NCBI RefSeq assembly: GCF_003702705.1
Contig: NZ_QZMN01000001.1
Coordinates: 310,001 to 374,000 of the forward strand
Reading direction: 5' to 3'
Source: Ornithinimicrobium cerasi
GTDB taxonomy: Bacteria > Actinomycetota > Actinomycetes > Actinomycetales > Dermatophilaceae
Length of the DNA stretch: 64,000 bases
Position 1 is the stretch's first letter. Every line of letters starts with the position of its first letter. Positions 20,851-43,566 of this stretch are shown piece after piece. Under the pieces are notes generated by a model that did not search any database, had not been told where the DNA came from, and saw nothing but the letters and a program-made list of their open reading frames with translations. Both the position numbers and the translations under genes were made by a program.

Positions 20851-20858
20851 GTCCGGCC

Positions 20859-21542: not shown

Positions 21543-21576
21543 GGCACCATCCTCCCGTACCCGATCAAGGAGTCCC

Positions 21577-24348: not shown

Positions 24349-25556
24349 CCCTGCGCGTCCTCCTCGCCACGCGCATCTTCGCGCCCGAGTCAGCCGCGGC
24401 GACGTTCCGGCTCACGGCGCTGGTGCGCGCACTGGCCGACCGGGCCTCCGTGCAGGTCCTCACGACCACGCCACCGCCGTCGCTGCGGGGCGCGCCGTCG
24501 CGGGGGCCGGGCGCGGAGGACACCGGGGGAGGCGTCACCGTCTCCCGATGGCCGGCGCTGCGCGACAGCACGGGGTACGTGCGCGGCTACCTGCCCTACC
24601 TCTCCTTCGACCTGCCGCTGGCGCTCCGCCTGCTCACGGTGCCGCGGCCCGACGTCGTCGTCGTCGAGCCGCCCCCCACGACCGGGGCGGTGGCCCGGGT
24701 GATCCTCGCCGCGCGGGGGCTCCGTGGGCCCCGGATCCCCTACGTCTACTACGCCGCCGACGTCTGGTCGGACGCCACCGCCTCGATGGGGGCGCCGGCA
24801 CCCGTCGTCGGCGTCATGCGGTGGGTCGAGCGCTTCGCGCTCCGCGGCGCCCGGGACGTGGTGGCGGTCTCCGACGGGGTTGCGGCACGGGTGCGCGCGC
24901 TCGTCGGTCCTGACTCCGGCGCCAGCGTCACGGTGGTGCCCAACGGCATCGACACCGACGTCTTCACCCCCGTAGGCGACCCGCACCCCGAGGCGCCGGG
25001 CACGCCATACCTCGTGTATGCCGGGACGGCCTCGGAGTGGCAGGGTGCCGAGATCTTCGCCGAGGCCATGCGCGAGGTGGTGCGTGAGGAGCCGCGCGCG
25101 CGCCTGGTCTTCCTCGGTCAGGGCTCCAGCTGGCCTGCGCTGCAGCGCATCCGGGACGATCTTCCGAGCGGTGCGATCGAGCTGCGACCCCTCGCGCCAC
25201 CGGCGGAGGCGGCTGCGTGGCAGCGCGGAGCCGCCGCGGCGCTGGTGAGCGTGCGACCCGGGGTGGGCTACGACTTCGCCTACCCGACCAAGGTCATCGC
25301 CGCCGTCGCGTGCGGCACACCGGTGGTCTTCGCCGGACCGGGCCCGGCCGCGGCGGACGTGGCCGAGCACGGGCTCGGCGAGACGGTCGGGTATGACGTC
25401 GGTCAGGTCGCGCGGGCCATGCTCGCCGCCCTCCGCGCTCACCGGGGTGGCCGCGACCCGGCGGCGGACGAGGCCCGCGTGCACTGGGCCCGGACCCACC
25501 GGAGCCTCACGGCGACGGGCCGGGCGGCGGCCGACGTGGTGCTGCGCGGGCCCTGA
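24345..25556 (+). CDS. GT4-family glycosyltransferase (TTG start)
   Basis: A retaining GT-B glycosyltransferase of 403 residues acting in cell-surface glycan assembly. N-terminal domain: LRVLLATRIFAPESAAATFR; hinge and C-terminal domain: VTVVPNGIDTDVF (about 200), LVYAGTASEWQGAEIF and PTKVIAAVACGTPVVFAG. The TTG at 24345 overlaps the preceding stop (TTGA) and places the first strand correctly; no ATG or GTG lies nearby in frame, so TTG is required. It is the fourth gene of the acetyltransferase-aminotransferase-oxidoreductase operon. Confidence 0.9.
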   Translation: MTLRVLLATRIFAPESAAATFRLTALVRALADRASVQVLTTTPPPSLRGAPSRGPGAEDTGGGVTVSRWPALRDSTGYVRGYLPYLSFDLPLALRLLTVPRPDVVVVEPPPTTGAVARVILAARGLRGPRIPYVYYAADVWSDATASMGAPAPVVGVMRWVERFALRGARDVVAVSDGVAARVRALVGPDSGASVTVVPNGIDTDVFTPVGDPHPEAPGTPYLVYAGTASEWQGAEIFAEAMREVVREEPRARLVFLGQGSSWPALQRIRDDLPSGAIELRPLAPPAEAAAWQRGAAAALVSVRPGVGYDFAYPTKVIAAVACGTPVVFAGPGPAAADVAEHGLGETVGYDVGQVARAMLAALRAHRGGRDPAADEARVHWARTHRSLTATGRAAADVVLRGP

Positions 25557-27880: not shown

Positions 27881-29146
27881 TCACCGGTCCACCGGCTCGA
27901 CGCCGAGCCAGCCGCCCAGCACCGCGGCGGCGGCCCGACCGTCGTGGTGCCGCCGGGCCCACGCGGGACCCCGCGACGCCACCGCCTGGTATGCCGCCCG
28001 GTCGTCGAGGACGCCCTCGAGCACCTCCCGCAGGGTGTCGGGGTCCGCCTCCACCACCGGCACGTCGGCCTCCGCACGGTCCAGGACCGGGAGCGCCTCG
28101 TCGCTCGCCCCCCAGCGACCCCGCACCTGGTCGGTCAGGTGCGCGACGACCACCCGACCGGCCGCCAGGGCCTCCGTCATGAGCACCCCCGGGTTGCCCA
28201 GCACGACCTGGTCGACCACCACGTCCGCGTCGGCCACGAAGGCTGGCATCTGCGCGTGGGGGACGCCGCTGAGGCGGCGGTACTGCACCAGCCCGGCACT
28301 CTGCATACCCTCCAGCACCTCCTCCACCGCCCCGGTGCCCTTGAGGCGGGGGTTGGAGGGCGCGTGCAGGATCACCGGCACCTCCCGCTCGAGCGGTCCC
28401 ACCCCGGCCGCCGCGGCGCCGGCGAAGCGGTCCACGTCCACCACCAGCGGCAGCCAGGACGCCCCGGGCACGACGTCGAGCAGGTCGGGGGTGGAGACGA
28501 GCACCCGGCCACCGCCGGCGGCGTGCTCCCGCAGGTCGGCACGGTTCTTGTCCACGATCGACTGGAGCGTCCGGAAGTAGTCGTCCCACTCGCGCTCCGG
28601 CACCCGGTAGGGGCTGTGCGGGTAGCGCTCGGCGTGCTCGCGCAGGTCGCGGATCTCGCTGCCGTGGTAGAGGACGGCGTGCGAGATCCCGGCCGCCTCC
28701 AGCGCCGGCACGTCCTGGAGCATCGAGGCGGCGTGGAAGTCGGCGAGCACCGCCCGCCCCGACTCGTGCAGCACGTGGGTGGCCTCCCGCAGCACCCGCT
28801 CCCCGTGGATCTCCCGCACCCGGCCGCGCTGGGCGAGGGCGGAGATCTCGTGGTCGGCGGGGAAGGAGAAGTGCGACTGCGCCAGCGAGCGCTGGGCCCA
28901 GAGGTTCTGGGCGGCGGTGCCGGGCAGGTGGCGCTCGGCGGCCCGCGCCCAGGACCACCCCTGTCCTGCGGTGTTCCACGGCCCGGCGTAGAGCCGGCGA
29001 TCGGCCTCCGGCATGGGGGTCAGCGAGCGCAGCTCGGCGTCGGCGCGCCGCCGGACCGGCAGGGTCGCCACCCGCCGCACCGGTCCGGGGAGCGCCGCGA
29101 CCGCGCGCCACGCGAGACGACGCAGGTCGACGGGGGGAGCGGCCAT
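27881..29146 (-). CDS. Glycosyltransferase-like GT-B protein
   Basis: A 421-residue cytosolic protein whose second half reads as a GT4-like C-terminal domain: PVILHAPSNPRLKGT at about residue 265, DVVVDQVVLGNPGVLMTEALAAG with the nucleotide-sugar-binding acidic region, and a closing DRAAYQAVASRG-type helix. The first half has LHESGRAVLADFHAASML and VLYHGSEIRDL, typical of the acceptor domain. Donor and acceptor are unknown. The ATG lies 6 nt behind TAGGCT and lacks a ribosome site (leaderless). It is divergent from the ABC exporter, with overlapping -10 elements. Confidence 0.8.
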   Translation of the reverse strand: MAAPPVDLRRLAWRAVAALPGPVRRVATLPVRRRADAELRSLTPMPEADRRLYAGPWNTAGQGWSWARAAERHLPGTAAQNLWAQRSLAQSHFSFPADHEISALAQRGRVREIHGERVLREATHVLHESGRAVLADFHAASMLQDVPALEAAGISHAVLYHGSEIRDLREHAERYPHSPYRVPEREWDDYFRTLQSIVDKNRADLREHAAGGGRVLVSTPDLLDVVPGASWLPLVVDVDRFAGAAAAGVGPLEREVPVILHAPSNPRLKGTGAVEEVLEGMQSAGLVQYRRLSGVPHAQMPAFVADADVVVDQVVLGNPGVLMTEALAAGRVVVAHLTDQVRGRWGASDEALPVLDRAEADVPVVEADPDTLREVLEGVLDDRAAYQAVASRGPAWARRHHDGRAAAAVLGGWLGVEPVDR

Positions 29147-29169: not shown

Positions 29170-29187
29170 ATGAGGCAGGACGGATGA
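29170..29187 (+). CDS. Possible 5-codon leaderless upstream ORF (MRQDG) coupled to the ABC exporter
   Basis: ATG AGG CAG GAC GGA TGA starts 8 nt after the TACGAT hexamer, so the transcript may begin at this ATG. Its TGA overlaps the ABC gene's ATG as ATGA. Alternatively AGGCAGGA within it is just the ribosome site of the exporter gene. Confidence 0.4.
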   Translation: MRQDG

Positions 29188-30959
29188 GCAGGCTGCTGCG
29201 CGCGCTGCGTCAGCTCCTCCCGCTGCTGCCCCCCTCGACCCGCTGGTTCCTGCTCGTCTACGCCGTGCTGTCCAGCCTGCTCGCCGTCGTCGACATCCTC
29301 GCCCTCGCGCTGCTCGCGCTCACCCTCGCACCGATGGTCCAGGACCGACCGGTGACCCTGCCGCTGCTCGGCGAGGTCGCCGCGGACCGCTACGCCTGGC
29401 TGCTCGGGGGCATCACCCTGCTGGTCGTGCTCAAGGGGCTCGCCACCCTCGTCCTGCAGTGGGCGGTCGCGCGGCGGCTTGCGGCCTACGACCTCGTGAT
29501 CGGCGACCGGCTCTTCGGCGCCTACATCCGCGCGCCCTGGACCGAGCGGCTGCGCCGCAACACCGCGCAGCTGGTCCGTCTGGCCGACGTCGGCATCGCC
29601 AACACGACCACCGGCCTCCTGCTGCCCGCCGCGTCGCTCCCGGCCGAGCTGGCGACCTTCGCGGCGGTCCTGGTGGTCCTGCTCGTCGCGCAGCCCCTCA
29701 CCGCGCTCATCACGTTCGCCTACCTGGGCGGTCTGGCCGTCCTCATGTATGTCGTGATCTCGCCCCGCGCGGTCGTCGCCGGGCGGGTGGGGCGCGACTA
29801 CTCCTTCAAGGTCGCCGGCCTGATGACCGAGATGATGGGGGCCCTGAAGGAGGTGACCCTGCGCGGCAAGGCGCAGGAGGTCGCCGACGAGGTGCACGCC
29901 AACCGGGTGCACGCGACGCGGGCGCGGAGCAACCTGATGTTCCTCAACTCGGTGCCCAAGTTCGTCACCGACACCGGTCTCGTGCTCGGCTTCGCGATCG
30001 TCGGCGGGATGGCCTACCTGCTCGGCGGCCCGGCCCAGGCGTTCGAGGCGATCGCGCTCTTCGCCGTCGCCGGGATGCGGATGATCCCGAGCGTCAACCG
30101 CTTCCAGTCGATCATGACCCAGACCTCCTCGACGCTGCCGCACGCCGAGGCGGTGATCACCGACATCGTCGAGGCCCGGGGCTACGTCGAGGCCGCCGAG
30201 CGGCTCGGCCAGGACCCGCTGCCGGAGGACCCGCAGGTGCTGACGCTGCGCGACGTCGCCTTCACCTACCCCGGGAGGGCCGAGCCGGCGCTGCGCGAGG
30301 TGAGCCTCGACATACCGCTGGGGTCCTCGGTGGCGCTCGTCGGCGCCTCGGGCGCCGGGAAGTCCACCCTCGTCGACGTGCTCCTCGGCCTCCTCGTGCC
30401 GCAGGAGGGGCAGATCCGGGTCGACGACCGGCCGCTGCCGGACGTGCTCGCGGCGTGGCGGTCGAGGGTGGGCTACGTGCCTCAGGAGGTCAACCTCTTC
30501 GACGGCACCGTGGCCCAGAACGTGGCCCTGACCTGGGGCGAGGACATCGACGAGGACGCGGTGACGCGCGCCCTCGAGCGGGCCCAGCTGCTCGACCTGG
30601 TGCGGGAGCGCGGGGGGCTGCGGACCCGGGTGGCCGAGCGGGGTCTGGCGCTCTCGGGCGGGCAGCGGCAGCGGCTCGGCATCGCCCGGGCGCTGTACGC
30701 CGACCCGCTCGTCCTCGTGCTCGACGAGGCCACGTCCTCCCTGGACACGACCACCGAGGACGCCGTCGCCCGCGCGATCCGCGAGCTCCACGGGCAGGTC
30801 ACCGTCATCGCCGTCGCGCACCGGCTCTCCACGGTGCGCCACAGCGACCAGGTGTGCTTCATGCGGGAGGGCACGATCGCCGCCCGTGGCACCTTCGACG
30901 CGGTCGTCGCCGCGCACCCGGAGTTCGCCACCCAGGCGCGACTGTCGGGGCTGGCATGA
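29184..30959 (+). CDS. ABC exporter, fused membrane and ATPase domains (PglK/MsbA-like flippase)
   Basis: A 591-residue half-transporter that dimerises; by context it probably flips a lipid-linked oligosaccharide or exports glycan. The membrane domain (about 1-320) has six hydrophobic helices starting RWFLLVYAVLSSLLAVVDIL; that segment and GALKEVTLRGKAQEV resemble PglK/WlaB. The ATPase domain has Walker A GASGAGKST (about 391), Q-loop YVPQEVNLFDGTV, signature LSGGQRQRLGIARAL, Walker B LVLVLDEATSS and the H-loop AVAHRLSTV. The start follows AGGCAGGACGG and overlaps a tiny leader ORF. Its stop overlaps the next ATG (ATGA). Confidence 0.93.
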   Translation: MSRLLRALRQLLPLLPPSTRWFLLVYAVLSSLLAVVDILALALLALTLAPMVQDRPVTLPLLGEVAADRYAWLLGGITLLVVLKGLATLVLQWAVARRLAAYDLVIGDRLFGAYIRAPWTERLRRNTAQLVRLADVGIANTTTGLLLPAASLPAELATFAAVLVVLLVAQPLTALITFAYLGGLAVLMYVVISPRAVVAGRVGRDYSFKVAGLMTEMMGALKEVTLRGKAQEVADEVHANRVHATRARSNLMFLNSVPKFVTDTGLVLGFAIVGGMAYLLGGPAQAFEAIALFAVAGMRMIPSVNRFQSIMTQTSSTLPHAEAVITDIVEARGYVEAAERLGQDPLPEDPQVLTLRDVAFTYPGRAEPALREVSLDIPLGSSVALVGASGAGKSTLVDVLLGLLVPQEGQIRVDDRPLPDVLAAWRSRVGYVPQEVNLFDGTVAQNVALTWGEDIDEDAVTRALERAQLLDLVRERGGLRTRVAERGLALSGGQRQRLGIARALYADPLVLVLDEATSSLDTTTEDAVARAIRELHGQVTVIAVAHRLSTVRHSDQVCFMREGTIAARGTFDAVVAAHPEFATQARLSGLA

Positions 30960-33382
30960 GCCGCGACCCCGGCGCCGGCCCGGTCACGCTGCCGCCCGTC
31001 GACATCGACGTGGTCGTCGCCGTGCACGACCTGCGCCGCGAGGTCGGGTGGACCGTGGCCTCCGCCCTGGAGGGCGCCGACCTGGCCGGCGTGCTCCCCA
31101 CCGGTCACCGCGTCCGGGTCACCGTCGCGTGCCACGAGCTCGGCGCGGCGGAGGTGCGTCGTCGCGTCGAGGAGGCGCTGGAGGCCACGGAGGAGGACGA
31201 CCTCGCCGCGCACGTGCGCTACCTCGAGGTGCGTGACGGGCTCGGCTCCCCGGCCGGGCCGTTCAACGCCGGCCTGGCGGCGGCCCAGGGTCGCTACGTG
31301 AGCATCATCGGCTCCGACGACAGGTATGCCGCGGGCGCGCCGGGTGCGTGGGCTCGGCTGGCCGACGAGCTCGGGTCGGCGTGGTTGATGCCCCGCCTGG
31401 AGACCGACACGGGCGAGCAGGTCCCCACGCCGCGGACGCGTCCAGGCCGGACCCGCGACCTCGACCTGGTGCTCGACCGGCTCGCCTACCGCACCGCCCC
31501 GCTGGGCCTGCTGCGACGGCAGAGCCTCGAGGACCTCGGGCTGCTCCCCGAGCCCCTGACACCCGGGCTGGTCACCGGCGAGGACGTCGAGCTGTCCCTG
31601 CGCCTCGCGGCCTCGGGGGAGCGGGTCGACTACGCGGCCGAGCTGCCGCCCTACGTCATCGGGACCGGGGCCGCCGCCGCCCCGGACCTTGCGCCGGAAC
31701 CGGACCCCGACGACCCGGGTCGGTCGGCGCGCACCTCGGAGGCCGTGCGCCCGGTGGCCGACGAGCTCGCCGCGCACGCCCGTCTCCTCGACCGGCGCTG
31801 GGTCCTCGCGCTCCCCGCACCTGCCCGCCGCGCGATCGTGGTCAAGACCCTGCGGATCCACGTCCTCGCCGCCGTCCGGCGCCGGACCTCACCGCTGGAC
31901 TGGGCGCCCGGCGAGGCGGCGTGGGTGCGCGCGCTCACCCACGACCTGCTGTCGATGGCCCCCGACGCGGACCGGGCGCTGCACCGGGCCGACCGGGCGC
32001 TGCTGGAGGCGGTCCTCACAGCCCGGGACACCGACGCCCTGGCGGCCGCCTCCGACCGACGCGCCCGCGCCTCCCGCTGGGACATCCTGCTGAGCCCCTC
32101 CCCGCTGGCCAACCTCGACCACGAGTCGACGGTGCGCCAGCACCTCGAGGCCGCGGTCGTCCGGGCCTCGACCAGGGGTCGGGACCTCGTGCAGGCGGTG
32201 GGCGAGAGGGAGCGCCGCCACCGGCCGTCGGCCCTGCACGTCGAGGACCGGCCACGCGTCCTCGTCCTGTCCTTCAGCCCGGTCGCCGACGACGCCCGGG
32301 TCCTCAAGCAGGTGCGCCACCTCGCGGAGGAGTTCGACGTCGTCACCTGCGGCTACGGGCCCCCTCCTCCCGGCGTCACGGCTCACGTCCGCGTCCCGGA
32401 CGAACTGCAGAACCGCCTCGACGGGAGGCTCATCACCCTGCACGCCTACCGCGCCGCCTACCTGGCGCAGGCCGGCGTGCGGTGGGTGCGGAGCGCCGTC
32501 GCGCCGGGCACCGCCGACGTCGTCCTGGCCAACGACCTCGACGCGGTCCCGCTGGCGCTGGCGCTGCGGCCGCGGGCGGGCGTCCACGCCGACCTGCACG
32601 AGTACTTCCCCCGGCTGCACGAGGAGCACGAGGCCTGGATGAGGCGGATCTCGCCCTACCAGGCGTGGCTCTGCGGCCGCTACCTCCCGCGCTGCACGGC
32701 GGTCACCACCGTCAGTCACCGCATCGCCGAGGAGTACGCCGAGCAGTTCGGCGTCCGGGTCGGCGTCGTGACCAACGCCAGCCCGTGGGCGGACCTCGCG
32801 CCGGGCCCGGTGGATCACCGGATCCGGCTCGTCCACTCCGGCGCCTGCCTGCGCAACCGCGACCTGCACGTCCTCGTCGACGCGGTAAACCTCGCCGCGA
32901 CCGAGGGCGCCGACGTGACCCTCGACCTCTACCTCACGGCCAACGACCCCGGATACCTCGACGAGCTGCACGAGCGCGCCAGCCTCACCGGGGGCGTGGT
33001 GAGCGTGCTCCCGCCCGTCCCCTACGCGGACCTCGTGTCCACCCTGAGCAGGTATGACGTCGGCGTGCACGTGCTCCCTCCGAGCTCCTTCAACAACGCC
33101 AACGCGCTGCCCAACAAGGTGTTCGACTACGTCCAGGCCAGGCTGGGGCTGCTCGTGGGCCCCAGCCCGGAGATGGCGCGGCTCGTGCACCACCACGGCG
33201 TCGGTGTCGTGGCCGACGGGTTCGACGCGCGGGCCGTGGCCACGGTGGTCGGCAGCCTCGACGTCGACCGGGTGAGGCGCTACAAGGCGGCGGCCCACGC
33301 CGCCGCCCTCGAGCTCTCCGACGCCGAGCAGTCCCGTCGCTGGGTGGACTCGGTCAGAGCGATCGCCGGGGGCGCGTCGTGA
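30956..33382 (+). CDS. Fused GT2 + GT-B glycosyltransferase (order GT2-GT4)
   Basis: An 808-residue protein with two glycosyltransferase units. Residues about 15-270 are GT2: DIDVVVAVHDLRREV, DGLGSPAGPFNAG, the IGSDDR metal site and GLVTGEDVELSLRLA. About 270-410 is a helical segment with KTLRIHVLAAV. About 430-808 is a GT-B unit: VLSFSPVADDARVLKQ, GVHADLHEYFPRLHEE, LPNKVFDYVQARLG and GPSPEMARLVHH. The GT2 unit including its helical tail is homologous to the C-terminal half of the 36793 gene, and the GT-B unit to the next gene. The start overlaps the ABC stop (ATGA); the end overlaps the next start (GTGA). Confidence 0.88.
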   Translation: MSRDPGAGPVTLPPVDIDVVVAVHDLRREVGWTVASALEGADLAGVLPTGHRVRVTVACHELGAAEVRRRVEEALEATEEDDLAAHVRYLEVRDGLGSPAGPFNAGLAAAQGRYVSIIGSDDRYAAGAPGAWARLADELGSAWLMPRLETDTGEQVPTPRTRPGRTRDLDLVLDRLAYRTAPLGLLRRQSLEDLGLLPEPLTPGLVTGEDVELSLRLAASGERVDYAAELPPYVIGTGAAAAPDLAPEPDPDDPGRSARTSEAVRPVADELAAHARLLDRRWVLALPAPARRAIVVKTLRIHVLAAVRRRTSPLDWAPGEAAWVRALTHDLLSMAPDADRALHRADRALLEAVLTARDTDALAAASDRRARASRWDILLSPSPLANLDHESTVRQHLEAAVVRASTRGRDLVQAVGERERRHRPSALHVEDRPRVLVLSFSPVADDARVLKQVRHLAEEFDVVTCGYGPPPPGVTAHVRVPDELQNRLDGRLITLHAYRAAYLAQAGVRWVRSAVAPGTADVVLANDLDAVPLALALRPRAGVHADLHEYFPRLHEEHEAWMRRISPYQAWLCGRYLPRCTAVTTVSHRIAEEYAEQFGVRVGVVTNASPWADLAPGPVDHRIRLVHSGACLRNRDLHVLVDAVNLAATEGADVTLDLYLTANDPGYLDELHERASLTGGVVSVLPPVPYADLVSTLSRYDVGVHVLPPSSFNNANALPNKVFDYVQARLGLLVGPSPEMARLVHHHGVGVVADGFDARAVATVVGSLDVDRVRRYKAAAHAAALELSDAEQSRRWVDSVRAIAGGAS

Positions 33383-34530
33383 GGCCGGACCCCCGGCCGC
33401 GGCTGCTGGTCATCGCCTTCAGCCCGCTGCGTTCCGACGCCCGGGTGCTGCGGCAGGTAGCCCTGTTCGCCGAGCGCTACGCCGTGACGACCCTCGGCTA
33501 CGGTGAGGCGCCGGACGGCGTCGTCGAGCACCTGCGCCTGCCCGACGACGTGGTGAACTGGCACAAGGACCGTCGGCTCCTCGCCGTGCGACGGTTCGAG
33601 GCGGCCTACCGCAGCGCCCCCGTGGTGGTGGCCGCCGAGGACCTGCTCGAGGGTCGTGCCCGCACGTTCGACGTCGTCCTCGCCGACGACATCGACACCG
33701 TGCCGCTCGCGCTCGACCTCGCCCCGCCGGCCGGCGTGCACGCCGACCTGCACGAGTACCACCCCCGGCAGAACGAGGAGAACCCGCGCTGGCGGTTCTT
33801 CGTCGCGCCGTACTACCGCTGGCTCGTGCGGACCTACGGCACCCGCGCCGACTCGGTGACGACGGTGGGGGAGGGCATCGCGCGCGAGTACCGACTGCGG
33901 TTCGGGCTGCGCGCCGGCGTGGTCGTCAACGCGCCGCACCTCGTCGACCTGGGGCCGACGCCGGTGCCCGACGGCGCACCGCTGCGCCTCGTCCACTCCG
34001 GCAACGCCCAGCGGCACCGGCTCGATGTCATCCTCGAGGCGATGGACCTGGTGTCCCGGCCGATGACGCTCGACCTCTACCTCATGTCGAACGACCCCGG
34101 CTACCTGGAGGAGCTCCGGACCAGGTATGCCGGCTCCGACCGGGTGCGCCTGCACCCCCCGGTGCCGCCCGACCAGCTGCCCGTCACGCTCAACGCCCAC
34201 GACGTGGGCGTCTACGTGCTGCCCCCTGTCTCGTTCAACCACCTGTGGGCGCTGCCCAACAAGGTCTTCGACTTCGTGCAGGGCCGGCTGGCGCTCGTGG
34301 TCGGCCCGAGCCCGGAGATGGCGGCCCTGGTGCGCCGGCACGGGGTGGGCGTCGTGACCGACGACTTCACCCCGGCGGCGCTGGCCAGGGAGCTCGACGC
34401 CCTGACGTCGGCGGACGTGCGCCGCTTCAAGGCTGCCTCCGACGTCGCCGCCCACGAGCTCTGCGCGGAGCGGCAGGTGCAGGGCTGGTCCCGGGCGGTC
34501 GACACGCTCGCCGCCCGGGTCAACGGCTGA
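33379..34530 (+). CDS. GT-B (GT4-like) glycosyltransferase, paralogue of the preceding C-terminal half
   Basis: A 383-residue enzyme that aligns by eye along its whole length with the second half of the upstream fusion: VIAFSPLRSDARVLRQ, GVHADLHEYHPRQNEE, LVHSGNAQRHRLDV, LYLMSNDPGYLEEL, LPNKVFDFVQGRL and GPSPEMAALVRRHGVGVV. This points to a duplication. The GTG start overlaps the preceding stop, so exporter, fusion and this gene form one operon. Donor and acceptor are unknown. Confidence 0.88.
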   Translation: MRPDPRPRLLVIAFSPLRSDARVLRQVALFAERYAVTTLGYGEAPDGVVEHLRLPDDVVNWHKDRRLLAVRRFEAAYRSAPVVVAAEDLLEGRARTFDVVLADDIDTVPLALDLAPPAGVHADLHEYHPRQNEENPRWRFFVAPYYRWLVRTYGTRADSVTTVGEGIAREYRLRFGLRAGVVVNAPHLVDLGPTPVPDGAPLRLVHSGNAQRHRLDVILEAMDLVSRPMTLDLYLMSNDPGYLEELRTRYAGSDRVRLHPPVPPDQLPVTLNAHDVGVYVLPPVSFNHLWALPNKVFDFVQGRLALVVGPSPEMAALVRRHGVGVVTDDFTPAALARELDALTSADVRRFKAASDVAAHELCAERQVQGWSRAVDTLAARVNG

Positions 34531-34533
34531 GGG

Positions 34534-35610
34534 TCACAGCCCGGTCAGCTGCCAGCCGCCGGCGGCGCTGCGCTCCCGGAACCCCAGCGCCTCGTTGATC
34601 GCCAGCATGTGGGAGTTCTCGCCGGCGTTCCAGGTGTGGACCCGCTCCACGTCAGGGGCGTGGGCCCGGAGCTGTTGAAGGTTGAGGGCCTTGACGAGCA
34701 TCCCGAGACGGTGGCCCCGGTGCCCGATGCGCACCAGCGTGTCCTCCTGGTAGGCCACCCGGGGCTTGTCCCGCGGCTGGTCCAGCACCGTGTACGCCAC
34801 CAGCTCCCCGCTCGCCACGTGCTCCGCCGCCACGGTCAGGCTCAGCCGACCCATCTCGACGGTGACCCGGTCCCGCTCCGCCACCCGGTCGGCGTCCCAG
34901 TCCTCGGGGTCGATCTCCAGCTCGCCGGAGGGTGCGTCGGTGCTCATCCGGGCCATCAGCGCGGCCATCCCCTCGAGGTGCTCGGGAGGGGTCGGGCCGA
35001 CCCACGACAGCGCGCGGTATGCCGGTCCCGCCACCTCCCGGGCGCCGGCCACCCCGGCCTCCGCGGCCGGGAGCGCCGGGGCGACCTCCAGCACGCTGTG
35101 CCGTTCGACCTGCTCGAGGACGAGCCCCAGCTCGCGCAGCGTGTCGGCGGCCCGGTCGCGGGGCAGCCGGCCGACGCCGGTGCGCGGTGTCAGGTGCTCG
35201 GCGGTGGGGTCCGCCCGGTGGGAGCTCCACACCTGGACGGTGGTGCGCCCCTCGCGGCGCAGCACCTCGTGCACCCCCGACCAGAGCGCCGGGATGACGA
35301 CCCCGGGGTCCGATCCGGGGTCCACCTCGAAGTCGCACTCGGCGAGGTGCGTGTTGTCCTTGAGCGGGATCCGCACGTAGGACCCGCCGACGACGTCGTC
35401 GCCGTCGAGCGCCAGGATGAGGCTCTTGCGGCGCACCGTCTGGCTGCCGTACGCCACCGCGATGGACGAGGCGGAGTCAGCCAGGTCGTCGTCCCCGAGG
35501 ATCGCCGTGAGGGCCCGGCTCACCAGGTCGGCGTAGGCCGCGACCTGCGCCGGCGGCGAGGCGGCCCCGCCCGGGTCGGGCGGCGGCACGGAGACGACCG
35601 AGAGACTCAC
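34534..35610 (-). CDS. Two-domain GNAT-type acetyltransferase-like protein
   Basis: A 358-residue cytosolic protein. The C-terminal half is GNAT-like: ASGELVAYTVLD, then the acetyl-CoA loop TLVRIGHRGHRLGMLVKALNL (the R/Q-x-x-G-x-G/A pattern appears as RGHRLG) and INEALGFRERSAAGGWQL. The N-terminal half looks like a degenerate second GNAT unit (AYGSQTVRRKSLILALDGDDVVGG). Substrate unknown. The GTG lies 7 nt behind GACACT with no ribosome site. It is convergent with the glycosyltransferase gene (3 nt between stops). Confidence 0.82.
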   Translation of the reverse strand: MSLSVVSVPPPDPGGAASPPAQVAAYADLVSRALTAILGDDDLADSASSIAVAYGSQTVRRKSLILALDGDDVVGGSYVRIPLKDNTHLAECDFEVDPGSDPGVVIPALWSGVHEVLRREGRTTVQVWSSHRADPTAEHLTPRTGVGRLPRDRAADTLRELGLVLEQVERHSVLEVAPALPAAEAGVAGAREVAGPAYRALSWVGPTPPEHLEGMAALMARMSTDAPSGELEIDPEDWDADRVAERDRVTVEMGRLSLTVAAEHVASGELVAYTVLDQPRDKPRVAYQEDTLVRIGHRGHRLGMLVKALNLQQLRAHAPDVERVHTWNAGENSHMLAINEALGFRERSAAGGWQLTGL

Positions 35611-35617
35611 GTCCGAC

Positions 35618-35623
35618 AGTGTC
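35618..35623 (-). promoter_or_regulatory. Leaderless promoter -10 of the GNAT gene
   Basis: GACACT on the minus strand, then 7 nt, then GTG at 35610. Confidence 0.5.
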
Positions 35624-35682
35624 TGCCGCCGTCGGGGGTGGCGGCAAGGCGTTTTGCGTCGGCACGGGGCGGGCGGCCGGCC

Positions 35683-36750
35683 TCAGGGGCGCGGGGCGCT
35701 CCCGAGCGCGTCCAGCACCGCGGCGGCCGCGGAGCCGTCGCCGTAGGGCGCCTCGTCCGTCGGGGCCGGGGCGGGGCGGGATGCCGCGTCGCGGACGGCC
35801 GGACCCGGCTCGACGAGCACGTTCCAGCCCAGCCGCACGGTCTCCACCCACTCGGTCTCGGTGCGCACCGTCGTGCACGGGGTGCGCAGCGCGAACGCCT
35901 CCTTCTGCAGGCCGCCGGAGTCGGTGATGACGCCCCTGGCCTGGGCCACCGCTCCCACGAGCGCCGGGTAGGGGAGGGGCGGCCGGGTGATGAGCGACCC
36001 GCCGTCGAGGTCGAGCCCGTGCTCCTCCGCCCGCGCGCGCAGGCGGGGGTGCGCCAGGAGCACGACCGGGTGGTCGACCTCCTGCAGCGCCGTGACGATC
36101 GCACGCAGGCGGTCCGGGTCGTCGGTGTTCTCCGCCCGGTGGACGGTCGCGAGGGAGAAGCGGCCAGACGGCACACCCAGCTCCGCCAGGACCGCCCCGG
36201 TGTCGACGAGCTCGTCGCGCACCCGCATCAGGACGTCGATCATCACGTCGCCGACGACCACCGTGCGGCCGCCCAGACCCTCGTCGGTGAGGTGCCCGCG
36301 CGCCACCTCGGTCGGCGCCAGCAGCAGGTCCGCGGCGTGGTCGGTGAGCACCCGGTTGTGCTCCTCGGGCATCCGCCGGTTGAACGAGCGCAGCCCCGCC
36401 TCCAGGTGGGCGACCGGCAGGTGGAGCTTGACGGCCGACAGGGCCCCGGCGAGCGTGGAGTTGGTGTCGCCGTAGACGAGGACCCAGTCCGGTCCCTGCG
36501 TCTCCAGCACCGCGTCCATGGCGCCGAGGATGGCGCCGGTCTGCACGCCGTGGCCGCCGGAGCCGACGCCGAGGTGGACGTCCGGGTCGGGGATGCCCAG
36601 GTCGCGGAAGAAGACGTCGGAGAGCATCGGGTCGTAGTGCTGCCCCGTGTGCACGATGACGTGATCGAGGCCGCGGCGCGCGCACTCCGCCGCCACGGGG
36701 GCGAGCTTGACGAACTGGGGACGGGCGCCGACGACGCTGAGAACCTTCAC
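35683..36750 (-). CDS. wecB: UDP-GlcNAc 2-epimerase (non-hydrolysing), WecB/WbpI family
   Basis: Interconverts UDP-GlcNAc-type and UDP-ManNAc-type sugars by 2-epimerisation. The 355 residues carry the family landmarks GARPQFVKLAP, HTGQHYDPMLS, VYGDTNSTLAGAL, HLEAGLRSFNRRMPEEHNR and TDSGGLQKEAFAL. WecB acts on UDP-GlcNAc, whereas the homologue WbpI acts on UDP-2,3-diacetamido-glucuronate; the presence of WbpD/E/B-like genes 12-14 kb away makes the WbpI role plausible. GTG 36750 follows TACCCT by 7 nt (leaderless). It is divergent from the GT4-GT2 fusion gene with 42 nt between them. Confidence 0.95.
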   Translation of the reverse strand: MKVLSVVGARPQFVKLAPVAAECARRGLDHVIVHTGQHYDPMLSDVFFRDLGIPDPDVHLGVGSGGHGVQTGAILGAMDAVLETQGPDWVLVYGDTNSTLAGALSAVKLHLPVAHLEAGLRSFNRRMPEEHNRVLTDHAADLLLAPTEVARGHLTDEGLGGRTVVVGDVMIDVLMRVRDELVDTGAVLAELGVPSGRFSLATVHRAENTDDPDRLRAIVTALQEVDHPVVLLAHPRLRARAEEHGLDLDGGSLITRPPLPYPALVGAVAQARGVITDSGGLQKEAFALRTPCTTVRTETEWVETVRLGWNVLVEPGPAVRDAASRPAPAPTDEAPYGDGSAAAAVLDALGSAPRP

Positions 36751-36757
36751 GGTGCCC

Positions 36758-36786
36758 AGGGTAGGGCGCCCGTGCCGGGATACGTT
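36758..36786. promoter_or_regulatory. Divergent leaderless -10 pair
   Basis: Minus strand TACCCT (36763 to 36758) lies 7 nt before the epimerase GTG. Plus strand TACGTT (36781-36786) lies 6 nt before the ATG of the GT4-GT2 gene. The whole intergenic space is 42 nt and neither gene has a ribosome site. Confidence 0.65.
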
Positions 36787-36792
36787 GGTGCC

Positions 36793-39195
36793 ATGCGCGT
36801 GCTGGTGGTGACGACCTGGTACCCCACCGCCGCCTCCCCCGGCACCGGCATCTTCGTGGCCCGCGACGTGGCGGCGATCGCGACGCTCCACGACGTGCGG
36901 GTGCTCCACCTGGTCGCACCGACGCTCGTGGAGCAGGGGCCCTCGGGGTATGCCGTGACCCCGGGCGGGCGGGGTGGGGCACCTGCCGCGTCGGCCGGGG
37001 CAGTGGTCCCCGTGGAGCAATTGGTCATGGACCCGCGCCGGCCGGACCACGTGCTGCGGGCCGCGCTGCGGGTCGGCGCGCTGGCAGGTCACGCCGACGT
37101 CGTGCACACGATGGCGGTCTCCGCGCTGCTGCCGATGACCGGGTGGCGACCCGCGGTGCCGTGGGTGCACACCGAGCACTGGTCCGGGCTCACCGCGCCG
37201 GAGACACTCTCGCCCGCGCTGCGCCTCGCCCGCGGTGCGGTCCGCCCCCTGCTGCGACGTCCGGACGTCGTCGCGGTCGTCGGCGAGGGACTGGCCGAGG
37301 GCGTGCGAGGGCTCCGGGCCGGCCCGGTCGTCGTGGTCCCGAACATCGTGGACGGTCCCGACGTCCCCGCGCCGCGCCGGGCCCCCGCGGTGGCGCTGAC
37401 CGACCGCGGGCCGCTGGAGCTGGTCGCGGTGGGTGCGCTGATCGACCGGAAGGACCCCCTGACGGCGGTCGAGGCGACGGCGGAGCTGCGGCGACGGGGG
37501 GTGGACGCGCGGCTGACCTGGGTGGGGGAGGGTCCGCTGCGCGGGCGGACGGCCGAGCGGGCGGGCAGGCTCGCGGTGCCCCTCACTCTGACCGGCGCCG
37601 TCGACCCGCCTGACGTGCCGGGTCTCGTCTCGGCGTCCGACCTGTTCCTCCTGCCGACGCGGGCCGAGACGTTCTGCGTGGCGGCGGCGGAGGCGCTGGC
37701 CCGCGGGCGCCCGGTCGTCGTCGGCGACAGCGGCGGGCCGCGGGCCTTCGTCGCTCCTCCCTCCGGGCTCCTCGTCCCCCCCGGTGCCCCCGCGGCGCAG
37801 TGGGCGGACGCCGTCGAGCAGGTGTGGGGCGCCGCCGCCGGCCTGAGCGCCGAGGACGTCGCCGCGCCGGTCCTGGCCGCCTACGGCGCCGCGCAGCACG
37901 CCGCCCGCGTGGACGCCCTGTATGCCGGCCTCACGCCCCGTGACACCGGTTCACCAGATGAACCAGTGGGTCCGGTGGATCACCACGCGAGCCAGGCCGA
38001 CCTTGGCTCAGGGGGTGAGCCAGTGGGTCCGGTGGATCACCGCGCGAGCCGCGCCGACCCTGGCTCAGGGGGTGAACCAGTGTCACGTGGTCCAGGCGAC
38101 CGGCCGCCGGACGTCGACGTGGTGATCGCCACCCACTCCTCCCGCCGGCGGACAGAGCAGGCCGTGAGGTCGGTGCTCGACGGGGTCGGCGCGGTGGCGG
38201 CGCGCGTCACGGTGGTGTGCCACGACCTGCCCCTGGCCGACGTCGCGGCCGGCCTCAGCGAGGCGACGAGGGCGGACGGGCGGGTCCGCCTGCTCGAGCA
38301 CCACGACGGGCTGGGCAGCCCGGCGGGACCGTTCACCGCGGGTCTGGAGGCGGCGACCGCTCCGTGGGTCTCGATCCTGGGCAGCGACGACCGCCTCTCA
38401 CCCGGCGCGCTGGGTCACTGGATGGACGTGGCCCACCGCACCGGCGCGGAGGTGGTCCTGGCGCAGGTCCAGCTCGACGGCGCCCCCGTCCCCACCCCGC
38501 CGACGCGCCTGCGACCGCTGCCGGGCATGCTTCGGCGACATCGCGACCTCGACCTGGTGCGGGACCGGCTCAGCTACCGCTCGGCCCCCCTCGGCCTTCT
38601 CTCCCGGGCCGCCGTCGAACGCACCGGCGCGCGCCTGCTGCCGGGGGCGCAGACCGGTGAGGACGTGCCCTTCGTGATCAGGCTGTACGCAGGTGCCCGG
38701 GTCGCGCTCGCAGACGCCGCGCCCTACGTCGTGGGCACGGACGCGACGGACCGCACGACCTCCGTGCCCAGACCGGTCCGGGACCAGCTGGTGGCGGTCA
38801 CCCACCTCGTCGAGGACCCGTGGCTGGCGACGCGACCGGCGGGCGAGCGCGACGCGGTCGGCACCAAGCTCCTACGCATCCACGTGTTCGGGGCGGTCCT
38901 CACGCGCAGCGACCCCGGCTGGTGGACGCCGGCCGAACGCGCCGACCTGGCCCGGATCACCCGGGAGCTCCTGGGCGCCTGCCCCGGTGCCGCCGACCCG
39001 CTCAGCCTGGCGGACCACGACCTCCTCCGCGCCGTGCTCGACCCCGGCACCCCCGCCCGGAAGCTCGTCGACCTCGCCCACGCACGGCGACGTCACGGCA
39101 CCCCCCGCACGCTGCTGCCGTCCGACTGGCGGCACGTCCTGCACCGCGAGGCGCCGCTGCGCCTGATGGCCGCCTCCCTCGCGGCCCAACGCTGA
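36793..39195 (+). CDS. Fused GT4 + GT2 glycosyltransferase (order GT4-GT2)
   Basis: An 800-residue protein with two glycosyltransferase units in the reverse order of the 30956 gene. Residues about 1-380 are GT4: VVTTWYPTAASPGTGIFVAR, HTEHWSGLTAPE, VVVVPNIVDGP and the donor-site LLPTRAETFCVAAAEALARG. A linker of 19-residue Asp/Gly/Pro repeats (about 385-435) leads to GT2 (about 437-800): DVDVVIATHSSRRRTE, DGLGSPAGPFTAG, LGSDDRLSPGAL, GAQTGEDVPFVIRL and the helical tail KLLRIHVFGAV. The C-terminal unit is homologous to the N-terminal unit of 30956; the GT4 unit is of a different subtype. The ATG follows TACGTT by 6 nt. Confidence 0.88.
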   Translation: MRVLVVTTWYPTAASPGTGIFVARDVAAIATLHDVRVLHLVAPTLVEQGPSGYAVTPGGRGGAPAASAGAVVPVEQLVMDPRRPDHVLRAALRVGALAGHADVVHTMAVSALLPMTGWRPAVPWVHTEHWSGLTAPETLSPALRLARGAVRPLLRRPDVVAVVGEGLAEGVRGLRAGPVVVVPNIVDGPDVPAPRRAPAVALTDRGPLELVAVGALIDRKDPLTAVEATAELRRRGVDARLTWVGEGPLRGRTAERAGRLAVPLTLTGAVDPPDVPGLVSASDLFLLPTRAETFCVAAAEALARGRPVVVGDSGGPRAFVAPPSGLLVPPGAPAAQWADAVEQVWGAAAGLSAEDVAAPVLAAYGAAQHAARVDALYAGLTPRDTGSPDEPVGPVDHHASQADLGSGGEPVGPVDHRASRADPGSGGEPVSRGPGDRPPDVDVVIATHSSRRRTEQAVRSVLDGVGAVAARVTVVCHDLPLADVAAGLSEATRADGRVRLLEHHDGLGSPAGPFTAGLEAATAPWVSILGSDDRLSPGALGHWMDVAHRTGAEVVLAQVQLDGAPVPTPPTRLRPLPGMLRRHRDLDLVRDRLSYRSAPLGLLSRAAVERTGARLLPGAQTGEDVPFVIRLYAGARVALADAAPYVVGTDATDRTTSVPRPVRDQLVAVTHLVEDPWLATRPAGERDAVGTKLLRIHVFGAVLTRSDPGWWTPAERADLARITRELLGACPGAADPLSLADHDLLRAVLDPGTPARKLVDLAHARRRHGTPRTLLPSDWRHVLHREAPLRLMAASLAAQR
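37960..38085 (+). repeat. 57-bp in-frame tandem repeats in an interdomain linker
   Basis: Copies start at about 37963, 38020 and (truncated) 38077, with period 57 bp, encoding EPVGPVDHxASxADxGSGG. The nucleotide sequence is nearly identical between copies, indicating recent duplication; the reading frame is kept. Confidence 0.92.
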
Positions 39196-40264: not shown

Positions 40265-41593
40265 ATGAAGATCGCGGTCGTCGCGCTCGGCAAGATCGGT
40301 CTCCCCCTGGCGGTGCAGTTCGCCGACGCGGACCCCTCGCACGAGGTCGTCGGGGTCGATGTCAGCCGGCGCGTCGTGGACGCGGTCAACGCGGGTCAGG
40401 AGCCGTTCCCCGGGGAGGCCGGGCTGGCCGACAAGCTCGCCGAGCTGGTCCCGGCAGGGCGGCTGCGGGCCACGACCGACTACGGCGACGCGATCCCCGG
40501 GGCCGACGCGGTGGTGCTCGTCGTGCCGCTCTTCGTCGACGAGGCCACCGGGGCCCCCGACTTCGGTTGGATGGACGAGGCGACCCGCTCCCTGGCGCAG
40601 CACCTCACCCCTGGCACGCTCGTCTCCTACGAGACCACCCTGCCGGTGGGCACGACCCGCACCCGCTGGAAGCCCATGCTCGAGGAGATCTCCGGGCTGA
40701 GCGAGTCACCGGACACCGGCTCCGGTGGTTTCTGGCTCGTCTTCTCGCCCGAGCGCGTGCTCACCGGTCGGGTGTTCGCCGACCTGCGCCGCTACCCCAA
40801 GCTCGTCGGGGGGCTGAGCCCTGAGGGCACCGCCCGTGCCGTCGAGTTCTACGAGTCGGTGCTCGAGTTCGACACCCGCCTGGACCTGCCCCGCCCCAAC
40901 GGCGTGTGGGACCTGGGCAGCGCCGAGGCCGCGGAGATGGCCAAGCTGGCCGAGACCACCTACCGGGACGTCAACATCGGGCTGGCCAACCAGTTCGCGC
41001 GCTTCGCCGACACCGTCGGCATCGACGTGCACCGCGTCATCGAGGCCTGCAACTCCCAGCCCTACTCCCACATCCACACCCCCGGCATCGCGGTCGGCGG
41101 CCACTGCATCCCCGTCTACCCGCGCCTCTACCTCTCCACCGACGCCGACGCCACCGTCGTGCGGTCCGCCCGCGAGGCCAACGCGGCGATGCCGGAGTAC
41201 GCCGTCTCCCGCGCCGAGGCGCTCCTGGGCTCCCTGCAGGGGCTGCGCGTCGTCGTCCTCGGCGCCTCCTACCGCGGCCGGGTCAAGGAGACCGCGTTCT
41301 CCGGGGTCTTCGCGACCGTCGGGGCGCTGCGCTCCCGCGGCGCCGAGGTCCTGGTCCACGACCCCATGTACGACGACGACGAGCTCGCCGCCCTCGGGTG
41401 GACGCCCTACCACCTCGGGGAGCCGGCGGACGTGGCGATCGTCCAGGCCGACCACCCCGAGTACACCCGGCTCTCCTCCCACGACCTCCCCGGCCTGCGG
41501 CTGCTCCTCGACGGGCGCCGCGTCACCGACCCCGACCGGTTCACCGGCGTCCCCCGCCTCACCATCGGCGGGGGTGACCCCCTCCCCGCATGA
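40265..41593 (+). CDS. UDP-N-acetyl sugar 6-dehydrogenase (WbpA/WecC-type)
   Basis: An NAD-dependent four-electron dehydrogenase of 442 residues that oxidises C6 of UDP-GlcNAc or UDP-ManNAc to the uronic acid. It has the Rossmann motif VVALGKIGLPLAV, the ETTLPVGTTR segment, SPERVLTG, AEMAKLAETTYRDVNIGLAN and the catalytic cysteine in GGHCIPVYP (about residue 278). With the Wbp-like enzymes at 21.6-24.3 kb it would supply UDP-GlcNAcA; with the epimerase alone it would make UDP-ManNAcA. A -10-like TATCCT lies at 40219, giving a leader of about 35 nt. Its stop overlaps the next ATG (ATGA). Confidence 0.93.
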   Translation: MKIAVVALGKIGLPLAVQFADADPSHEVVGVDVSRRVVDAVNAGQEPFPGEAGLADKLAELVPAGRLRATTDYGDAIPGADAVVLVVPLFVDEATGAPDFGWMDEATRSLAQHLTPGTLVSYETTLPVGTTRTRWKPMLEEISGLSESPDTGSGGFWLVFSPERVLTGRVFADLRRYPKLVGGLSPEGTARAVEFYESVLEFDTRLDLPRPNGVWDLGSAEAAEMAKLAETTYRDVNIGLANQFARFADTVGIDVHRVIEACNSQPYSHIHTPGIAVGGHCIPVYPRLYLSTDADATVVRSAREANAAMPEYAVSRAEALLGSLQGLRVVVLGASYRGRVKETAFSGVFATVGALRSRGAEVLVHDPMYDDDELAALGWTPYHLGEPADVAIVQADHPEYTRLSSHDLPGLRLLLDGRRVTDPDRFTGVPRLTIGGGDPLPA

Positions 41594-43566
41594 GCTGGGC
41601 GCAGGCCGCACCCGGCGTCGTCGGGCTCGCACTGATCTGGGTGGTCCCGGGGTATGCCGTGCTGCGGCTCCTCGGGTTCCGTGGGCTCCTCGCGCTGGGG
41701 GGCGGGGCCGCCGTCACCTCCGGGCTGTCCGGGGTGCTGGCCATCGCCTACGACCTCGTGGGCATCGGCTGGTCGCTGGGCAGCCTGCTGCTCGGGCTCC
41801 TGCTCGCGGTGGCGGTCGCTGCCGCCCTCGGCCGCCTGCTCGGGTCGACCCAGCACCCGGACGGGGTGACGGTCGCGGGGGAGCGCGAGCTGCGGCATAC
41901 CGAGCGCGGGTGGCTGGCGCTCACCTGGGCCCTCGGCGGCGGCGTGCTCGCCGCGGCCATGACGACCGGCATGGGGCGCGCGGACCAGCCGCCGCAGGCC
42001 TGGGACGCGGTCTTCCACCTCAACGCGCTGTGGTTCGTGCGGGAGACCGGCAACGCCAGCTCGCTCGGCGGGCTGTCCCCGATGTACGCCGACCTCGCCG
42101 CCCCGTTCTACCCCGCGACGTGGCACGGGCTGGTCGCCGTCGCGCCGTTCCTCCCCGGCGTGACGGAGGCGGCGAACGCCTCCTCGGTGGTGCTCGGGTC
42201 GGTCGTCTGGGTGGCCGGGCTGGTCGCGCTCTCCCGCGTCGTCTGGCCGGCGCGGGCGCTGCCGACGGTGCTGGTCCCCGTGCTGGCCGCCTCCTACGTG
42301 GCCTTCCCGGCGATCGCGGTGTCGATGCTGGCGGTGTGGCCGTTCGCGCTGTCGGTGGCCTGCCTGCCGGGCACGATCGCGCTCGTCATCGCCACGCTGC
42401 GGGGCGTCCTCTCGTGGCGCATGCACCTGGCGCTGTCCCTCGGGCTGCTCTGGGCGGTCGCCGGGGTGGTCCTGGCGCACCCGTCCGGGCTGTTCTCCCT
42501 CGTGCTCCTCGCGCTGCCGCTGCTGACCGTGCTGCTCGCGCGCCAGCTGGTGCGGATGGGCCGTCGGGGCCGGCCGGTGCGCGCGGCGCTGCTGATGACG
42601 GTCTGGGTGGTGGCGATCGTGGGCACCATCGTCTTCCTGGTCAACTTCCCGCCGGTGCGCTCGATCATGGACTACCGCAGGGGCGGGCAGGACTCCTACC
42701 TCCCGGGCGTCGGGTCGCTGCTCATCGACCACCCGCTCATCTACGTCTACAAGATCACCTCGGTCAACGTCGTCGGCACCGCGCTCGTCCTGCTGGGGGT
42801 GGTGCTGGCGCTCCGGTGGCGGCACGCCCGCTGGCTGGTGGTCTCGCTCGTCGCCGCCGCGGTGCTGACCCTGCTCGCCGCCGGTCCGCCCGAGCAGCCG
42901 CTGCGGGTGCTCGCCGGCTTCTGGTACACCCAGGCGTCCCGGATCAACCAGCTGATGCTCGTGCCGGCGATCATGCTCGCGGCGGGGGCGGGCTCGTGGC
43001 TGTCCCGGGTCGCGGCCCGACGGCTCGGGAGCCCCCTGTGGGTCCCGGCCGCGGTCCTCGTGGTGATGCTCGTGACGCTGACGTCGGGGCTGCGGTGGAC
43101 GAGCCAGACCCAGGTGATGGCCTCCACCTACACGACCTACCCCATCGCGTGGGGGACGATCCTGGAGCCTGAGGAGATCGCGATGATCGACCGGGCCGCC
43201 ACGACGCTGCCGGACGACGCGGTCGTCCTGGGCGAGGCGGTGGCGGGCTCGCCGTACCTCCTGCACCGGGCCGGCGTCGACGTCGTCTTCCCCCAGCTCA
43301 GCCCCATCCCGGACTCGCCGGAGCGGACGGTGCTCGAGCAGGACTTCCGCGACTGGCGCACCCGGCCCGAGGTCTGCGACGCGGTGCGCGCGCTCGGCGT
43401 CACGCACGTGTATGCCGACTCGCTCACCTTCGACGACCCGCTCAACGCCAAGTGGGAGGAGACCACCCCCGGCCTGCGCAACCTGGCCCCCGAGGAGGGC
43501 CCGGACTTCCGCCGGGTGGACGAGGGTGGCTCGGCCTCGCTGTGGGAGTTCACCGGCTGCTCGTGA
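41590..43566 (+). CDS. Large DUF6541-like integral membrane protein
   Basis: A 658-residue protein with about 12 hydrophobic segments in the first 500 residues, a loop QAWDAVFHLNALWFVRETGN (about 138-157) and an extracytoplasmic soluble C-terminus (about 515-658). DUF6541 proteins in actinobacteria look like GT-C-type glycosyltransferases or polymerase-like envelope proteins, with an acidic residue in the first outside loop (here WDAVFH). It starts in the stop of the sugar dehydrogenase, so it is co-expressed and may use the uronic-acid glycan. No Wzy or Wzx is present, making this the best polymerase or GT-C candidate (inference). Confidence 0.75.
   Translation: MSWAQAAPGVVGLALIWVVPGYAVLRLLGFRGLLALGGGAAVTSGLSGVLAIAYDLVGIGWSLGSLLLGLLLAVAVAAALGRLLGSTQHPDGVTVAGERELRHTERGWLALTWALGGGVLAAAMTTGMGRADQPPQAWDAVFHLNALWFVRETGNASSLGGLSPMYADLAAPFYPATWHGLVAVAPFLPGVTEAANASSVVLGSVVWVAGLVALSRVVWPARALPTVLVPVLAASYVAFPAIAVSMLAVWPFALSVACLPGTIALVIATLRGVLSWRMHLALSLGLLWAVAGVVLAHPSGLFSLVLLALPLLTVLLARQLVRMGRRGRPVRAALLMTVWVVAIVGTIVFLVNFPPVRSIMDYRRGGQDSYLPGVGSLLIDHPLIYVYKITSVNVVGTALVLLGVVLALRWRHARWLVVSLVAAAVLTLLAAGPPEQPLRVLAGFWYTQASRINQLMLVPAIMLAAGAGSWLSRVAARRLGSPLWVPAAVLVVMLVTLTSGLRWTSQTQVMASTYTTYPIAWGTILEPEEIAMIDRAATTLPDDAVVLGEAVAGSPYLLHRAGVDVVFPQLSPIPDSPERTVLEQDFRDWRTRPEVCDAVRALGVTHVYADSLTFDDPLNAKWEETTPGLRNLAPEEGPDFRRVDEGGSASLWEFTGCS

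Follow-up and report, generated by a model that had tools for sequence, protein, structure and literature searches.

Two fused glycosyltransferases in opposite domain order

We analysed a 64,000-nt stretch of the Ornithinimicrobium cerasi genome (assembly GCF_003702705.1, contig NZ_QZMN01000001.1, positions 310,001 to 374,000; hereafter the window, numbered from its first letter), which carries two fused glycosyltransferase (GT) genes and a related free one. Protein A (808 amino acids; 30956..33382, + strand) consists of a TarS/TarP-like GT2 module with a helical tail (residues ~15–404) followed by a GT-B module (~432–808). Protein B (383 amino acids; 33379..34530, +) is a free GT-B and an old paralogue of the GT-B half of A. 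Protein C (800 amino acids; 36793..39195, +) starts with a GT4 module (1–384) and, after a low-confidence linker (385–432), ends with a TarS/TarP-like GT2 module and its helical tail (~437–800). An in-frame tandem repeat of 57 nt (19 codons; 37959..38082, +) with 2.2 copies and 91% matches lies in the linker of C. A and C are each encoded by one uninterrupted open frame.

Pfam assigned both halves of C above the cut-offs (GT4, 77.8 bits; GT2, 27.1 bits). The whole-protein scores of A were slightly below them for GT2 (18 bits, cut-off 23.3) and PF13439 (27.5 bits, cut-off 28.5), and the GT-B half scanned alone reached 32.1 bits with PF13439, above the cut-off of 28.5. B scored below the Pfam cut-offs. 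A and B had no NCBIfam match at E ≤ 0.01, and the matches of C, including EpsE and TuaC, were all far below cut-off.

The GT2 modules of A and C shared 154 identities over 354 positions (43.5%, 197 bits, E = 1e-63), helical tails included, and the motifs DGLGSPAGPF, GSDDR, and LRIHV stood in register, one of the three being in the helical tail. When the organism's own genome was searched with both GT2 modules at E ≤ 1e-3, only the A and C loci matched, with no third copy. Judged from alignment and search, the two modules are specific paralogues. The GT-B half of A and B shared 188 of 379 positions (50%, E = 2e-106), whereas the GT-B half of A and the GT4 half of C showed no significant pairwise match (E = 1.7); C's GT4 and B gave a short, weak match only (E ~1e-5). 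The initial annotation had described two fusions in opposite order and GT2 units homologous through their tails, attached on opposite sides to different GT-B partners. The single frames, the Pfam matches, the two-domain models below, and the alignments bear this out, and the concern that the GT2 halves might not be specifically related falls away. Its description of B as a duplicate of the C-terminal half of A stands as to paralogy and fails as to recency, the copy being old in the GT-B tree.

Predicted structures and active-site motifs

The predicted models of A and C contained two confident domains each, with low-confidence linkers at residues 385–432 of C and, shorter, at 417–426 of A. The predicted template modelling scores of the two models were 0.57 and 0.62, and the relative placement of the halves is therefore not fixed. 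Both GT2 modules were TarS/TarP-like along their full length, helical region included, by sequence profile and by fold match, the identity to TarS/TarP in the fold matches being 12–16%. The SDD motif and a later Asp, which we take to be the metal-binding and catalytic residues of TarS/TarP-like GT2 enzymes, were each present in 130 of 130 GT2 modules. The N-terminal half of C has a GT-B fold with an EX7E-type motif, a mark of GT4 enzymes in which the second E is usual. A fold match was also found for the GT-B half of A. At the final acidic position of the GT4-type motif, 70 of 89 GT-B rows had D, among them the GT-B half of A and B (window 32249–34530), and 19 had E. The structure alignments comprised 77 and 67 rows picked from the modules found, excluding L039, L059, and L080. 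The earlier suggestion that each fusion adds two sugars would fit the active-site signatures in three of the four halves; the exception is the D at the last acidic position in A's GT-B half.

Gene order of separate and fused modules

Scanning named genomes gave 165 relatives, of which the best 80 were analysed and all mapped (homologue matches of at least 70 bits kept). These 80 included Ornithinimicrobium, Serinicoccus, Brachybacterium, Actinomyces, Georgenia, Sanguibacter, Cellulosimicrobium, Oerskovia, Microbacterium, and Arthrobacter, the nearest by these modules being Ornithinimicrobium and Serinicoccus. The loci were retrieved with the GT2 module and ranked against the GT2 of C, which gives a biased view of how widely the C pair is shared.

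For the C pair, a separate GT4 gene lay directly upstream of the GT2 gene in 43 of the 80 loci, and the two were fused in 12. GT2 preceded GT4 in eight loci (more than 3 kb apart in L081), one pair was on opposite strands, and 16 loci had no GT4 at the threshold. In 32 of the 43 separate pairs, a candidate start codon would make the GT2 gene overlap the end of the GT4 gene by 4 or 8 nt.

The picture was more scattered for the 48 further, A-like GT2s: eight were fused to a GT-B, five lay at most 150 nt upstream of one, 12 were within 1.5 kb, one was far away, and 22 had no GT-B downstream on the same strand. The last figure includes the two GT2s of L085, where the locus end truncates the GT-B piece, though all lie in one frame. 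Direct neighbours in the right order occurred in other A-like groups, namely Microbacterium, Rarobacter, Cellulosimicrobium (L077), Oerskovia (L105), and Agromyces. A GT27-type homologue stood between GT2 and GT-B in L078, L094, and L103. The GT2–GT-B fusion was seen only in the Ornithinimicrobium/Serinicoccus clade, apart from one Microbacterium locus (L085) with a GT2-GT2-GT-B triple. The gaps between matched modules in the A- and C-type fusions ranged from 3 to 67 residues and by eye had no obvious common sequence.

Other combinations were also seen. The triple of L085 (18077-21010, Microbacterium gallinarum) occupies a single frame cut by the locus end. L086 (4195-6624, a Microbacteriaceae genome) has two tandem B-type GT-B modules in a single frame. 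In L101 (13358-16069, a Microbacterium metagenome-assembled genome, MAG), a GT2 of the TarS/TarP-like family is fused to a GT27-type domain, a homologue of the product of window 27881-29146.

Occurrence in the family and class

A match to the A-type GT2 was found in 18 of 149 genomes of the family at E ≤ 1e-3, 12 of them, including the source genome, at 1e-30 or better. Eight other genomes of the same genus were listed; five had both fusions, and two (G104 and G139) had the C pair only, with GT4 and GT2 in separate frames. The same-genus genome G133 had no GT2 match. An assembly or sequencing artefact was rejected, both fusions being shared by five further same-genus genomes and eight named loci; two of the five (G119 and G127) are single-contig assemblies, which makes an artefact unlikely. 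The family-genome and named-locus samples overlap (G047/L042, G080/L044, G145/L041, and the unfused G104/L049). A class-wide profile search gave matches in 266 of 393 genomes. With at most five candidates scored per genome, whole-module matches were found in eight genomes among the best-scoring matches listed, all of the same order.

Phylogeny of the modules

The GT2 tree held 130 modules (hits of at least 700 nt) and the GT-B tree 89 (180 bits and 850 nt or more); both were built quickly and without bootstrap, and L012 (G099), which is also fused, is absent from them. The GT2 tree contained a clade of 82 rows (support 99 by the Shimodaira–Hasegawa-like approximate likelihood ratio test, SH-aLRT) made up of C itself, one further row, and the top C-type row from every one of the 80 loci. 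Fused C rows came from the Ornithinimicrobium/Serinicoccus clade, from Brachybacterium, where unfused relatives stood next to them, and from one MAG; outside the tree, the family genome G099 also has a GT4–GT2 fusion. The fused A rows formed a clade of nine beside single-gene A-type modules of Sanguibacter and Georgenia. The fewest state changes were five among the 80 C-type rows and three among the 49 others (L039, at a contig edge and probably fused, was excluded), counts that vary with the tree and do not separate fusion from fission, although most rows are single genes. Three loci labelled Vibrio cholerae, Sporosarcina, and Acidobacteria (L080, L095, and L039) grouped with Arthrobacter or Ornithinimicrobium, and their labels or bins are probably wrong.

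In the GT-B tree, the half belonging to A sat in a clade of 28 (support 99) with free GT-Bs of other genera, apart from B, and a recent duplication of B from A was rejected on this ground. The positions of the GT2 and GT-B modules place the duplications before the fusions. To judge from these rows, the GT4–GT2 fusion recurs in several lineages. The initial annotation had asked whether both orders are widespread, ordinary fusions; among the best 80 of 165 relatives, this holds in part, namely for the C order and not for the A order.

Neighbouring genes

Upstream of A lies an MsbA/PglK-like ABC exporter with membrane and ATPase parts in one protein (29184..30959, +; ABC_tran, 112 bits), which scored 237 bits for MsbA and 199 bits for PglK, both under the equivalog cut-offs, and probably flips the glycan or its precursor. 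The exporter gene, A, and B follow one another with 4-nt overlaps of stop and start, so that the three look like one operon.

Five genes of the window have predicted roles in sugar-nucleotide synthesis: a non-hydrolysing UDP-GlcNAc 2-epimerase of WecB/WbpI type (35683..36819, −; TIGR00236, 248.6 bits, above the cut-off of 210.15), a nucleotide-sugar 6-dehydrogenase of WecC/WbpA type (40265..41593, +; TIGR03026, 275.7 bits, above the cut-off of 189.8), a hexapeptide-repeat acetyltransferase that is a WbpD/WlbB-like candidate (21349..22185, +, start uncertain; PF00132, 68 bits), a DegT-family sugar aminotransferase that is a WbpE-like candidate (22178..23308, +; PF01041, 395 bits), and a Gfo/Idh/MocA sugar oxidoreductase that is a WbpB-like candidate (23317..24348, +; PF01408, 70 bits, scanned from a start at 23305). 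By family matches, these five beside a TarS-like GT2 are the kinds of genes for UDP-ManNAc3NAcA (the diacetamido-dideoxymannuronic acid donor) described in the utr locus of Streptomyces griseus. In many of the 80 loci the modules stand alongside homologues of the ABC exporter, WecB-like, WecC-like, DegT, Gfo, and DUF6541 proteins.

Two stand-alone glycosyltransferases, one of GT4 type (24345..25556, +) and one with a weak PF13524 match (27881..29146, −; 20 bits, cut-off 25), have homologues that recur in related clusters. The DUF6541 membrane protein (41590..43566, +; 515 bits) possibly serves a later step of the polymer pathway. A standard GT2 gene adjoining a DUF2304 gene (window 20293-21626, −) has GT2 homologues in relatives, and the pair may provide this polymer with a lipid-linked sugar. 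Downstream of the glycan cluster, a gene of the cytidylyltransferase family adjoins one for an acyltransferase (window 45036-47176). TagF (PF04464) had no match in the organism's own genome, the control being positive in three of 14 genomes; three PF02397 and three LCP matches lie in that genome outside the window.

Proposed origin and function

We consider it probable that A and C serve as two-headed glycosyltransferases in a conserved actinobacterial cluster for a wall glycopolymer of teichuronic-acid type, and that both arose by the joining of nearby genes in place: GT2 then GT-B would have given A, and GT4 then GT2 would have given C. The opposite domain orders would then follow the order of two different gene pairs, for which the case is strong for C and weaker for A; the evidence for joining in place is less direct for A because its closest unfused relatives do not have the modules side by side. 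The TarS/TarP-like GT2, an inverting enzyme, would add an N-acetylated uronic acid in beta linkage, for example N-acetylmannosaminuronic acid (ManNAcA) or ManNAc3NAcA, and the retaining GT4/GT-B half would add a neutral sugar in alpha linkage. A flexible linker would keep both halves close to the cytoplasmic chain as it grows, and the ABC protein would then carry the chain across the membrane. As the most widely shared pair here, C is most likely the repeat-making pair, and A may be a second pair for a linkage, a branch, or a second repeat. The analysis shows directly the homologies, the domain order, the order of genes in relatives, the age of the duplications, the predicted folds, and the candidate genes of the sugar pathway; from these we infer the direction of the fusion events, the sugars, the linkages, the polymerisation of repeats, and the division of steps between A and C.

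With no TagF match in the genome, the polymer would more likely be assembled on a lipid primer, with LCP proteins ligating it. A TagF-dependent acceptor was set aside on the same negative, and transfer to a polyol-phosphate acceptor, such as GlcNAc to poly-ribitol phosphate, is predicted to be less likely for this reason. More tentatively, C, and perhaps A, may be a single-chain teichuronic acid synthase that alternately adds an alpha-linked neutral sugar and a beta-linked amino-uronic acid with its modules on a flexible tether, as a covalent form of the two-subunit synthetase of Micrococcus luteus; a chain that joins an inverting TarS-like GT2 with a retaining GT4 would fit an alternating polymer as in M. 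luteus and S. griseus. The fusion of a conserved gene pair in several lineages suggests enzymes that act together. GT4 and GT2 are a likely repeat-making pair of the cluster, and the fusion offers it as one protein to express and test.

Several points weigh against this proposal. The proposal is drawn from sequence and predicted structure. D replaces the usual second E in A's GT-B half and in B, so that both are probably, rather than certainly, active. Neither fusion is universal in the genus, as G104, G139, and G133 illustrate. In Sanguibacter loci L073 and L107 a GT4-like gene separates the GT2 from the GT-B of A type, and in Georgenia the only GT-B found was of B type, ~1.1 kb downstream of the A-type GT2. 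The relative age of the duplications rests on quick trees, and the change counts carry the limits given with them. Attachment to teichoic acid as in S. griseus may not carry over to a genome in which TagF was unmatched, an exporter resembling PglK and MsbA would also fit a short oligosaccharide, and the utr locus, UtrC included, was compared by its published description.

Of the alternatives, near-neutral fusion fares best: two enzymes of one complex would have become one chain with the reaction unchanged, the tether fixing only stoichiometry and folding. We give it about even chances, and it is compatible with the origin proposed above. Candidate gene overlaps in unfused relatives, the variable inter-module gaps, and the low-confidence linker of C agree with it, as do the modules of Klebsiella O-antigen polymerases, described as occurring in both single- and multi-module proteins (PMC11231755); against it, the recurrence of the GT4–GT2 fusion hints at an advantage without proving one. 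It is rather unlikely that the cluster makes a different glycan (capsule, exopolysaccharide, lipid-linked oligosaccharide, or protein glycan) instead of a teichuronic-acid-like polymer. The MsbA/PglK-like exporter and the unmatched TagF would allow it, and no Wzx/Wzy-type gene was named among the part of the window genes scanned; the amino-uronic-acid gene set with a TarS-like GT2, however, matches the S. griseus locus as described, and M. luteus has a ManNAcA-containing teichuronic acid (PMC3005890). The shuffling proposed in the initial annotation, in which a mobile GT2 cassette joined different GT-B partners on opposite sides for combinatorial glycan assembly, is very improbable: the same GT2 family on both sides of dissimilar GT-B folds, the other combinations in L085, L101, and L086, and the nearest unfused relatives of A, which do not have its immediate precursor arrangement, speak for it, but relatives carry the modules as separate genes within the same clusters, for the most part in fusion order, fused and free modules of the same clusters group together in the trees, the duplications predate the fusions there, and no sign of cassette transfer was seen, in analyses not aimed at such transfer. 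Apparent domain shuffling may thus be explicable by the joining of neighbours.

Comparison with known systems

The GT2 wall-teichoic-acid GlcNAc transferases TarS and TarP of Staphylococcus aureus match both GT2 modules by profile and fold, helical region included; unlike them, the modules here are fused to GT4/GT-B partners. Chondroitin polymerase and KpsC are single chains with two or more glycosyltransferase modules. Two-module transferases are already known, according to the account of the polymerases WbdA, WbbY, and WbbB (PMC11231755), which have at least two glycosyltransferase modules per chain. The module families of all these enzymes are different, whereas here a TarS/TarP-type GT2 is combined with GT4/GT-B, and many relatives have the unfused forms. 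A literature search by titles and abstract openings found no fused TarS/TarP-type or teichuronic-acid transferase, a weak negative given thin coverage of subscription journals.

Teichuronic acids have been described as a poorly characterised class (PMC13274773). In the account of the S. griseus utr locus, UtrC is TarS-like and UtrF TarM-like, and the teichuronic acid contains ManNAc3NAcA, its repeat of alpha-N-acetylgalactosamine (GalNAc) and beta-ManNAc3NAcA depending on UtrC (PMC13274773). Compared by description, that locus and the present one agree in having a TarS-like GT2 and in the kinds of their sugar-nucleotide genes; the Utr transferases are described as separate proteins, however, and the Streptomyces polymer as attached to wall teichoic acid.

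M. luteus belongs to a related order. Its teichuronic acid synthetase is described as a 440-kDa complex of two transferases with subunits of ~54 and 52.5 kDa, the genes for which are unnamed in that account (PMC3005890). The repeat is beta-ManNAcA and alpha-glucose, and significant elongation requires both donors (PMC3005890). The pairing of alpha-glucosyl and beta-ManNAcA transferase activities corresponds to the one proposed here for the halves of the fusions, but in M. luteus the activities are described in two separate subunits, whereas here they would be united in a single chain of ~800 residues.
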